NCBI GenBank assembly: GCA_029981855.1
Contig: JARRCS010000001.1
Coordinates: forward strand, 124,001 to 188,000
Source of the DNA: Halanaerobiales bacterium
GTDB lineage: Bacteria > Bacillota > Halanaerobiia > Halanaerobiales > DTU029
Length of the DNA stretch: 64,000 nt
Reading direction: 5' to 3'
Below are positions 16,525 to 22,447 of this stretch, piece after piece. How positions within the stretch are numbered: the stretch's first letter is position 1; each line of letters starts with the position of its first letter. The position numbers and the translations under genes were made by a program. A model generated the notes under the pieces. The model was not told the DNA's origin and did not search any database. It saw nothing but the letters and a program-made list of their open reading frames with translations.

Positions 16525-16878
16525 ATGAGGGGAATTAGAGGAGCTATTACTGTTCAGGAGAATTCGAGAGAGGCAATTCTTACTGCTACCAGAGAATTAC
16601 TGGAAAGGGTAATGGAAGAAAATGAGGTTAGGGAAGAGGAACTGGTGAGTATTGTATTTACGGCAACACCCGATCTTGATCAGGTTTACCCGGCTGTTGC
16701 TGCACGGGAGATGGGTCTCCAACTTGTTCCGCTGCAATGTTATCAGGAGATGAGTGTTATTAATTCTCTGAAAAAATGTATCAGGGTCCTGGTTTATATC
16801 AACAGAGACTGTTCTTTAAAGGATATCAGGCATGTATATTTAGAAGGGGCTAAAAAGTTGAGACCTGATTTAGTTTAG
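16525..16878 (+). CDS. aroH: chorismate mutase, AroH type
   Basis: A 117-residue monofunctional chorismate mutase of the Bacillus AroH fold, converting chorismate to prephenate. Landmarks: MRGIRGAITVQENSREAI with active-site Arg, FTATPDLDQVYPAVAAREMG, and a C-terminal HVYLEGAKKLRPDL. It starts the aromatic block, 38 bp before aroF. The upstream region carries the repeated segment ACGGAAGTAAGG twice (16448 and 16499), the second copy supplying a weak ribosome site. Confidence 0.93.
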   Translation: MRGIRGAITVQENSREAILTATRELLERVMEENEVREEELVSIVFTATPDLDQVYPAVAAREMGLQLVPLQCYQEMSVINSLKKCIRVLVYINRDCSLKDIRHVYLEGAKKLRPDLV

Positions 16879-16916
16879 TATAACACAGAATAGAGTAGTT
16901 AGAAGGAGATGAGAAA

Positions 16917-20167: not shown

Positions 20168-20196
20168 TTGACAAGTTGCTTATTTTAAATTATAAT
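20168..20196 (+). promoter_or_regulatory. perfect consensus promoter of trpEG
   Basis: TTGACA (20168-20173), exactly 17 bp, TATAAT (20191-20196). It matches consensus at all twelve positions. The transcript would start near 20203 and run into the TRAP-type leader. Confidence 0.88.
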
Positions 20197-20213
20197 GAAG
20201 AAAATTACATATT

Positions 20214-20277
20214 GAGTTGAGCCCAGGTTAGTTTAGATGAGTTGAGTTTAGTTTTAAGTATTTCAGGGAGCTTTTAG
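20214..20277 (+). promoter_or_regulatory. TRAP (MtrB) RNA-binding site in trpEG leader
   Basis: Eight NAG triplets begin at 20214, 20219, 20224, 20229, 20234, 20239, 20244 and 20249, each exactly 5 nt apart: GAG, GAG, CAG, TAG, TAG, GAG, GAG, TAG. Looser AAG (20256), CAG (20264), GAG (20268) and TAG (20275) follow. TRAP is an 11-mer ring that binds 11 (G/U)AG triplets separated by 2-3 nt when loaded with tryptophan. Bases 20222-20230 can pair with 20309-20317, the 5' arm of the terminator, at 8 of 9 positions, which would act as the antiterminator. A small GGGAGC/GCTCCC hairpin lies at 20266-20282. No mtrB gene is in this window. Confidence 0.78.
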
Positions 20278-20309
20278 CTCCCCAAACATGATATTACAAG
20301 AACCATTGT

Positions 20310-20345
20310 AACCAGGGTGTTCATTTTGCAGACCCTGGTTTTTTT
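20310..20345 (+). terminator. leader terminator (attenuator) of trpEG
   Basis: AACCAGGGT (20310-20318) pairs perfectly with ACCCTGGTT (20332-20340) across a 13-nt loop, with Ts through 20345. It lies 38 bp before the trpE start, so it must be read through for expression. Confidence 0.88.
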
Positions 20346-20382: not shown

Positions 20383-21909
20383 ATGATGAGATTAGAAGAG
20401 TTTCTAGAGCTGAGTGGAGAGTATAACTTGATTCCGCTTTATGATGAGATTGTTGGTGATACGGAAACACCAGTAACTCTTTATAACAGGCTAGGTAAGG
20501 AGAACGACTATTCATATCTGCTGGAGAGTGCCGGTGCGGGAAGATATTCCTTTATCGGGCTATTTCCTGAAAAGGTCTTTAAAAGGACTAAAAAGGGAAT
20601 CCTCTTCCTTGATAGTAAGGGAGAAGGGACGGAGTTAGTTCAGGATCGGACTAACTTAATAGAGTTTCTAAAGGACTATCTGAAGGGATTAAAGACCTAT
20701 CAAGCAGAGAATTTGCCCCCCTTTTCCGGAGGGCTGGTCGGGTATTTTGCTTATGAAATGATTGAGGAATGGGAGGACCTCTTCCATAATGAAGAGGGCA
20801 GAAAGATTCAACACGGAGATCTTCCGACGAGTATCCTTGTAATCGCTGGAGTCATTATCGCAATCGATCATTTTACACATACTATTAAGATAATCACAAA
20901 TGTTAAAATTGATCAGGGACTGACAGAAGAAGAAAGGATAGCACTCTATTATCAGAACCAGGCCAGGATTAGAAAGGTTATAAAATCGATAAAAGAGGGG
21001 CCATACAGATTAATTGAGAAAGGAACTGAATGGTCCGGCCAGTCTCTAGAAAAACCGGTCTCCAATACAACTAAAAGGGAATTTGAGGCCATGGTAGAGC
21101 AGGCAAAGGAATATATCAGGGCAGGGGATATCTTCCAGATAGTTTTATCCCAGAGGTTTGTCATTGAGAGTGCTCTTTCCCCCTTTCAGATTTACCGCGC
21201 TCTTAGGATAATGAACCCCTCCCCCTATCTGTTTTATTTAAATTTTCCTGAGGTGAAACTGATCGGCTCATCACCGGAGGTTCTGGTTAAAATTAAAGAC
21301 AAACGGGTAATTACCCGGCCGCTGGCCGGAACCAGGCGGAGAGGTAATACTAGGGCAGAGGATATAAAATTAGAGGAAGAGTTAAAACATGATGAAAAGG
21401 AAAGGGCAGAACATATTATGCTGGTGGATTTAGGGCGCAATGATCTGGGCCGGGTCTGTGAGATTGGAAGTGTTGAGGTTACTGAATTGATGGAGGTTGA
21501 GTATTATTCACAGGTTATGCATTTAGTCTCTCAGGTAGAGGGGAATCTGAGAGAGGGTTTAAGTAGTTTGGATGTTTTAAAAGCTGTCTTTCCAGCCGGG
21601 ACCGTTTCCGGCGCCCCCAAAATCAGAGCCATGGAGTTAATCGATCAACTGGAGAAGGAGCCGCGGGGGGTGTATGCCGGGGCAGTAGGATATATTGATT
21701 TTAAAGGAAACCTAGATACCTGTATAGCCATCCGGACCTTTGTGGTTAAAGGTAACAAAACATATATTCAGGTCGGGGCGGGTATTGTTGTCGATTCAAT
21801 TCCGGAAAGGGAATATGAGGAGACATTAAATAAAGCGAGGGCTCTTTTCCGGGCCCTGGAATTCATCGGTAGGGGGGATAGCGATGATCTTAATTATCGA
21901 CAACTATGA
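20383..21909 (+). CDS. trpE: anthranilate synthase component I
   Basis: A 508-residue TrpE that makes anthranilate from chorismate with ammonia supplied by TrpG. The N-terminal LLES motif (YLLESAGAGRYSFIG) is the tryptophan feedback site of TrpE. Catalytic chorismate-binding blocks include GDIFQIVLSQRF, SSPEVLVKI, TRPLAGTRRRG, EKERAEHIMLVDLGRNDLGRV, FPAGTVSGAPKIRAME and GAGIVVDSIPEREYEET. ATG 20383 is chosen because AGGAG lies 7 nt upstream; the frame opens earlier, at 20317, but that part is the terminator. PabB is the alternative, but the LLES motif and TRAP-type leader favour TrpE. It overlaps trpG by 26 bp. The rest of the trp genes are not here. Confidence 0.9.
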   Translation: MMRLEEFLELSGEYNLIPLYDEIVGDTETPVTLYNRLGKENDYSYLLESAGAGRYSFIGLFPEKVFKRTKKGILFLDSKGEGTELVQDRTNLIEFLKDYLKGLKTYQAENLPPFSGGLVGYFAYEMIEEWEDLFHNEEGRKIQHGDLPTSILVIAGVIIAIDHFTHTIKIITNVKIDQGLTEEERIALYYQNQARIRKVIKSIKEGPYRLIEKGTEWSGQSLEKPVSNTTKREFEAMVEQAKEYIRAGDIFQIVLSQRFVIESALSPFQIYRALRIMNPSPYLFYLNFPEVKLIGSSPEVLVKIKDKRVITRPLAGTRRRGNTRAEDIKLEEELKHDEKERAEHIMLVDLGRNDLGRVCEIGSVEVTELMEVEYYSQVMHLVSQVEGNLREGLSSLDVLKAVFPAGTVSGAPKIRAMELIDQLEKEPRGVYAGAVGYIDFKGNLDTCIAIRTFVVKGNKTYIQVGAGIVVDSIPEREYEETLNKARALFRALEFIGRGDSDDLNYRQL

Positions 21910-22447
21910 TTCCTTTACCTATAACCTTTTTCAGTATTTAGGTCAGTTAGCAGAGGTGGTGGTGAAACGCAATGACAGGATCACCTTATCTGAGATTGAG
22001 GAGCTTGGCCCCAGTCATATTGTTATTTCTCCTGGTCCGGGCCGTCCGGAAGAGGCCGGTATCTCTGAGAGGGTTATCGAGTACTTTAAGGGAGATATTC
22101 CGATTCTGGGCATCTGTCTGGGCCATCAGTGTATTGCCGATGTCTTTGGCGCAAAGGTTATTAGGGCGGGAAATATCTATCACGGCAAAACTTCTTTAAT
22201 CTACTACTCACACGAGGAAGGGATTTTTCAGGGAATTGAAAATCCCTTAACAGCTACCCGATATCATTCCCTGATTGTTGAGCCAGAAAGCGTACCTGAA
22301 GAGTTAAAGGTGATTGCCAGAACTGGAGAAGGGGAGATTATGGCTATAAGGCACCTTAACTATCCAGTCTACGGTCTGCAATTTCATCCGGAGTCAATCC
22401 TGACTGAATCAGGGTTAGCTATATTAAAGAATTTTATCAGGGCATAA
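21884..22447 (+). CDS. trpG: anthranilate synthase component II (glutamine amidotransferase)
   Basis: A 187-residue class I glutamine amidotransferase. The nucleophile is Cys78 in GICLGHQC; the His and Glu of the triad are in LQFHPESIL near the C-terminus. It starts MILIIDNYDSFTYN like TrpG/PabA. The start lies inside trpE, so translation is coupled. In many Firmicutes one such subunit serves both tryptophan and folate synthesis; whether that holds here depends on other pab genes. Transcription apparently ends after it, since cmk is 135 bp away. Confidence 0.9.
   Translation: MILIIDNYDSFTYNLFQYLGQLAEVVVKRNDRITLSEIEELGPSHIVISPGPGRPEEAGISERVIEYFKGDIPILGICLGHQCIADVFGAKVIRAGNIYHGKTSLIYYSHEEGIFQGIENPLTATRYHSLIVEPESVPEELKVIARTGEGEIMAIRHLNYPVYGLQFHPESILTESGLAILKNFIRA

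Follow-up and report, generated by a model that had tools for sequence, protein, structure and literature searches.

In this salt-loving anaerobe of the order Halanaerobiales, a single mRNA of trpE, whose product catalyses the first step of tryptophan synthesis, is likely to carry two TRAP targets in series: an attenuator in the leader, then a second site at which TRAP would block the ribosome, both read by analogy with Bacillus. To our knowledge, TRAP is a textbook RNA-binding regulator that has been studied almost only in Bacillus. Our search of the open-access literature, a scope outside which most subscription papers fall, found no paper on TRAP in Halanaerobiales.

The window, that is the whole stretch of 64,000 nucleotides that was analysed, contains the trpEG pair behind a promoter matching the consensus at every position, as the initial annotation had stated (Table 1), and transcription presumably starts at about 20203. 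Against the NCBIfam models, TrpE scores above the anthranilate synthase cut-off and does not pass those for PabB. The pair had also been described as free-standing, with no trpDCFBA; this is true of the neighbourhood and not of the genome, where trpDCFBA lies on contig C1 and the remaining genes of the tryptophan pathway are encoded.

Table 1. Features of the trpEG region and of the upstream aroF gene (positions in the window)
Feature	Position	Strand	Evidence or remark
Weaker array of eight NAG triplets covering the aroF Shine-Dalgarno (DAHP synthase, ATG 16917)	16871..16913	+	score 5.1; candidate TRAP site
trpEG promoter, sigma-70-type, TTGACA-N17-TATAAT	20168..20196	+	12/12 consensus match
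Leader array of eight NAG triplets with 2-nt spacers, predicted to be the first TRAP site	20214..20251	+	0/5000 shuffles match
Antiterminator strand within the array (CCCAGGTTA)	20222..20230	+	pairs with 20309-20317, 8/9
Small stable hairpin downstream of the array and ahead of the terminator, GGGAGCT-TTT-AGCTCCC	20266..20282	+	-11.7 kcal/mol, in MFE structure
Shared strand, 3' side of the antiterminator and 5' arm of the terminator	20309..20317	+	
Intrinsic terminator (attenuator)	20310..20345	+	9-bp stem, -14.6 kcal/mol, T run
Second NAG array (nine triplets), covering the start codon of trpE together with its Shine-Dalgarno and initial codons	20368..20419	+	score 6.4; predicted translational TRAP site
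trpE, anthranilate synthase component I	20383..21909	+	TIGR00564 541 bits, cut-off 517.7
trpG, glutamine amidotransferase component II	21884..22447	+	TIGR00566 244 bits, above cut-off

The leader array consists of the triplets GAG GAG CAG TAG TAG GAG GAG TAG, starting at 20214, 20219, 20224, 20229, 20234, 20239, 20244 and 20249 with 2 nt in every spacer, so that the eight NAG triplets at an exact 5-nt period of the initial annotation are indeed present. The register is perfect and seven of the eight triplets are G/UAG; AAG and CAG triplets at 4-5 nt spacing could lengthen the array, which has eight strong triplets against 10-15 in most relatives. TRAP sites already known have 9-11 triplets (PMC4347634). 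In 5000 dinucleotide-preserving shuffles of positions 20197-20345, the longest run of AG at period 5 was five, compared with eight observed, and no shuffle scored as high as the array. Genome-wide, seven AG at a 5-nt period were matched exactly only in the trpE leader and in an A-rich coding repeat of contig C39, and among 3271 tiles of 150 nt taken from stretches of the genome on both strands, the trpD leader alone outscored the trpE leader array. The NAG matches on contigs C29 and C39 were rejected as regulatory sites, being apparently within coding sequence (that on C39 is an AAG-type repeat), and the remaining genome-wide matches were mismatched and set aside. The hairpin downstream of the array is not followed by a T run and is possibly a pause hairpin. 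The terminator stem, formed by 20310-20318 and 20332-20340 and followed by five T, is as strong as first described.

The mtrB gene, on which the attenuator reading depends, is encoded on contig C6 (PF02081, E 7.6e-39; NF009724, the NCBIfam MtrB equivalog, 138.7 bits for a cut-off of 117). It is followed by a small ORF and an accD-like gene and preceded by a gene for a membrane protein (names read from translations). In an alignment with the solved TRAP 1c9s, residues Thr25, Thr30, Gln47, Thr49, Ser53, Lys37, Lys56 and Arg58 (Bacillus numbering), which we take to be the tryptophan and RNA contacts in Bacillus TRAP, are identical. We found mtrB in 32 of 38 Halanaerobiales genomes and in 200 of the 398 genomes sampled across the phylum. 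A search of the genome with PF15777 revealed no dedicated anti-TRAP (rtpA); a match below the cut-off was rejected because it falls in the zinc-finger region of DnaJ, recognised by its J-domain HPD motif and four zinc-finger repeats.

In Halanaerobacter jeridensis, NAG arrays lie at the start of mtrB and immediately behind it, ahead of trpE, and directly in front of trpD (L085:3558-3939, L085:5935-8253), an arrangement in which TRAP autoregulation is possible. In two other genomes, G029 (L164) and G028 (L165), trpE follows mtrB at a distance of a few hundred bases, and a NAG array lies in the interval. When four genomes having mtrB and no match for trpE were searched by pattern for TRAP targets, G001 alone yielded a good site. 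Genome G031, a single contig of 2,578,146 bases with mtrB at L121, has no trpE, trpD or trpP match, and the same kind of search found no convincing NAG array in it.

The second array first surfaced in the genome-wide search for AG at a 5-nt period. It spans the Shine-Dalgarno and start region of trpE, has no triplet at the AUG and includes one additional 6-nt gap. As shuffling was less extreme for this array (its score is reached in 4 of 5000 shuffles of that 90-nt region), a comparison with real genes was made. Among 189 ribosome-binding regions of this genome and its relatives, ranks 1 to 3 are occupied by the trpE genes of G006 (score 7.2), of this genome and of G008, the latter with its array at identical positions, -15 to +37. 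One could argue that the leader attenuator is the sole TRAP site and that the array at the start of trpE arose by chance from a Shine-Dalgarno rich in purines and from the codons of the conserved N terminus: purine-rich start regions do raise the background, as the shuffles indicate, and the TTA-G and GAG codons yield several triplets. We consider this unlikely in view of the three leading ranks, of the other trpE starts across the order, which score only about 1-3, those of relatives with similar N termini and unsplit operons included, of G006, which lacks the leader array and yet has the strongest array at the ribosome site, and of trpP, which has a like site in most mtrB-bearing genomes.

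In B. subtilis trpE, leader-bound TRAP causes a refolding of the RNA that sequesters the Shine-Dalgarno in a hairpin (PMC11255114), and this established mechanism could in principle operate here, where the trpE Shine-Dalgarno is also predicted inside a weak local hairpin. However, its predicted accessibility stays at 0.17 with the leader array masked or not, which argues against refolding and for direct blocking, and a direct array exists, as in B. subtilis trpG, trpP and ycbK, in which TRAP bound to a NAG array across the translation start blocks the ribosome site (PMC11255114, PMC4347634). Control of the B. subtilis trpE type is therefore very improbable, and we retain two predicted sites acting in series as the likely reading.

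At the first site, the array overlaps an antiterminator that excludes the terminator upstream of trpE, since positions 20309-20317 can pair either with 20222-20230 or within the terminator stem (20310-20340). This alternative pairing, exactly as proposed initially, comprises eight pairs and one A-A mismatch. In foldings of nascent transcripts, its probability peaks at 0.90 at position 20330, just before the 3' arm of the terminator emerges, and drops to 0 once the array is masked. When the 3' arm is finished, the terminator state (-36.8) is better than the antiterminator state (-26.6) by about 10 kcal/mol at equilibrium, whether the array is masked or unmasked; read-through in the absence of TRAP would thus be kinetic, or termination would be partly constitutive or only modulated. 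This equilibrium preference is the main weak point of the TRAP attenuator model. Antisense pairing between array and terminator is moderately above chance in this trpE leader (7/200 shuffles as good), is strongest in G026, G025, G003, G002 and the trpD leader of the present genome (0-5/200 shuffled arrays match, for at least one terminator arm), and involves different bases in different families. The prevalence of the strong terminator at equilibrium could also suit another attenuator (a leader peptide with Trp codons or a T-box) or a constitutive terminator beside an incidental NAG array, yet we find this the least credible reading of all, as no leader ORF with Trp codons was found in the trpE leader, whose sole TGG lies inside the terminator stem, the Rfam scan of the region returned no T-box and nothing but snoRNA-like chance hits below the threshold, the array recurs across the order, and trpP has none in two genomes that lack mtrB.

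In the TRAP model, the sites, their conservation and mtrB are read from sequence; binding, its dependence on tryptophan and both regulatory outcomes are borrowed from Bacillus TRAP. When tryptophan is scarce, TRAP would be idle and the nascent leader would form the antiterminator, so that the terminator would be delayed or avoided, trpEG transcribed and the trpE ribosome site left open. When tryptophan is plentiful, Trp-loaded TRAP would wrap the leader array and prevent the antiterminator, and the terminator would end transcription. Transcripts getting past this stop, among them read-through from the upstream aroH-aroF-tyrA-aroA, would still bear the nine-triplet array over the trpE start, where TRAP would directly block the ribosome at the Shine-Dalgarno and start codon. 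The TRAP-type attenuator of the initial annotation is therefore supported by mtrB and by the conserved array and terminator; that description missed the array at the ribosome site, the TRAP-type leaders of trpDCFBA and trpP, and the fact that anti-TRAP is apparently absent.

Across the order, 26 trpE genes were searched, and 25 of them have a leader NAG array of 7-15 triplets with one or more terminators behind it; most trpE leaders of Halanaerobium and of the DTU029 genus contain tandem terminators, the first about 20 nt past the array and the second close to the gene. The usual arrangement, seen in Halanaerobium polyolivorans and the DTU029 genus among others, is a trpE(G)DCFBA operon headed by trpE and preceded by a NAG leader. 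In G006, G008 and the present genome, which form one clade in the TrpE tree (95/96), trpE follows aroH-aroF-tyrA-aroA and trpDCFBA is encoded on a separate contig with its own leader array. These three genomes, in which trpEG is beside aroA and apart from trpD, are exactly those with a ribosome-site array at trpE. In G006, trpE starts 38 nt past aroA and has the ribosome-site array only, an arrangement that would permit repression of trpE alone, with the aro genes still expressed. B. subtilis trpG sits in an operon of other function. It offers a parallel to G006 trpE, being translationally controlled at its own TRAP site (PMC11255114). In genomes of the DTU029 genus, the trp operon was also observed without trpG between trpE and trpD (L047:7494-7552, L049:7479-7521), as in B. 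subtilis, whose trpG is outside the trp operon.

TRAP probably also controls the remaining tryptophan genes and the tryptophan importer trpP, judging from the arrays that precede them. The trpDCFBA leader of contig C1 (L037:7790-8065, minus strand) has a single 11-triplet array followed by two terminators whose 5' arms are the same or nearly so, AACCAGGCTTATG. If the first antiterminator is held, the C1:B2 pairing reaches 0.86-0.97 until the 3' arm of the second terminator is out, whereas equilibrium folding shows no such relay, T1 winning when complete. We hypothesise that an antiterminator held at the first terminator would free the 3' arm of the latter to pair with the second, a proposal kept at this level because the effect is seen only with the first antiterminator held. 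The trpP gene of this genome has a promoter, a leader array and a terminator, in addition to an array at its ribosome site. Of the 18 scanned genomes that bear mtrB, 17 have a ribosome-site array with a score of 4 or more at trpP; two mtrB-less genomes, G033 and G037, have none there and form a natural negative control.

The evidence for aroF as a further TRAP target is suggestive: the ribosome-site arrays of aroF in G008, this genome and G006 hold ranks 4, 6 and 7 of the 189 regions, with that of G006 weaker, in a comparison that is post hoc and concerns individually weak sites (3.5 to 5.1). We know of no indication that aroF is a TRAP target in Bacillus.

The trpE leader is comparable to that of B. 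subtilis trpEDCFBA (PMC3913778) in its NAG array overlapping an antiterminator, its competing terminator before trpE and the presence of mtrB in the genome. It differs from it by eight in-register triplets instead of 11, by an array lying about 11 nt from the presumed start point, too close for the 5' stem-loop of B. subtilis to fit between, and by a terminator with a longer T-run and a 9-bp stem. The operon itself is split, trpDCFBA being elsewhere under its own TRAP-type leader, and trpE has a direct ribosome-site array in place of the hairpin hiding the Shine-Dalgarno in B. subtilis. This second array resembles the trpG, trpP and ycbK sites of B. subtilis in spanning the translation start region; unlike them, it is found at trpE and downstream of a TRAP-type attenuator on one message, and trpP of this genome is doubled likewise. 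The anti-TRAP (rtpA) arm of B. subtilis found no counterpart here. As far as sequence comparison can tell, the doubled TRAP-type sites at trpE and trpP, the split operon under TRAP-type leaders and the possible extension to aroF would be new relative to Bacillus.

We tentatively propose, as a scenario that is rather doubtful when taken as a whole, that within one clade the trp operon was split and trpEG entered the aromatic operon, that TRAP would then act twice on trpE and through translation only in G006, and that aroF would be repressed without anti-TRAP and trpDCFBA governed by the relay. The locus would present TRAP in a distant lineage with rearranged targets, and the genomes compared would form a natural series, from attenuation only to attenuation plus ribosome blocking and then to ribosome blocking only. 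Such a series would allow the reassignment of one RNA-binding ring between transcription and translation to be tested as an operon breaks up, and it would likewise allow a test of whether TRAP reaches the entry enzyme of the aromatic pathway upstream.
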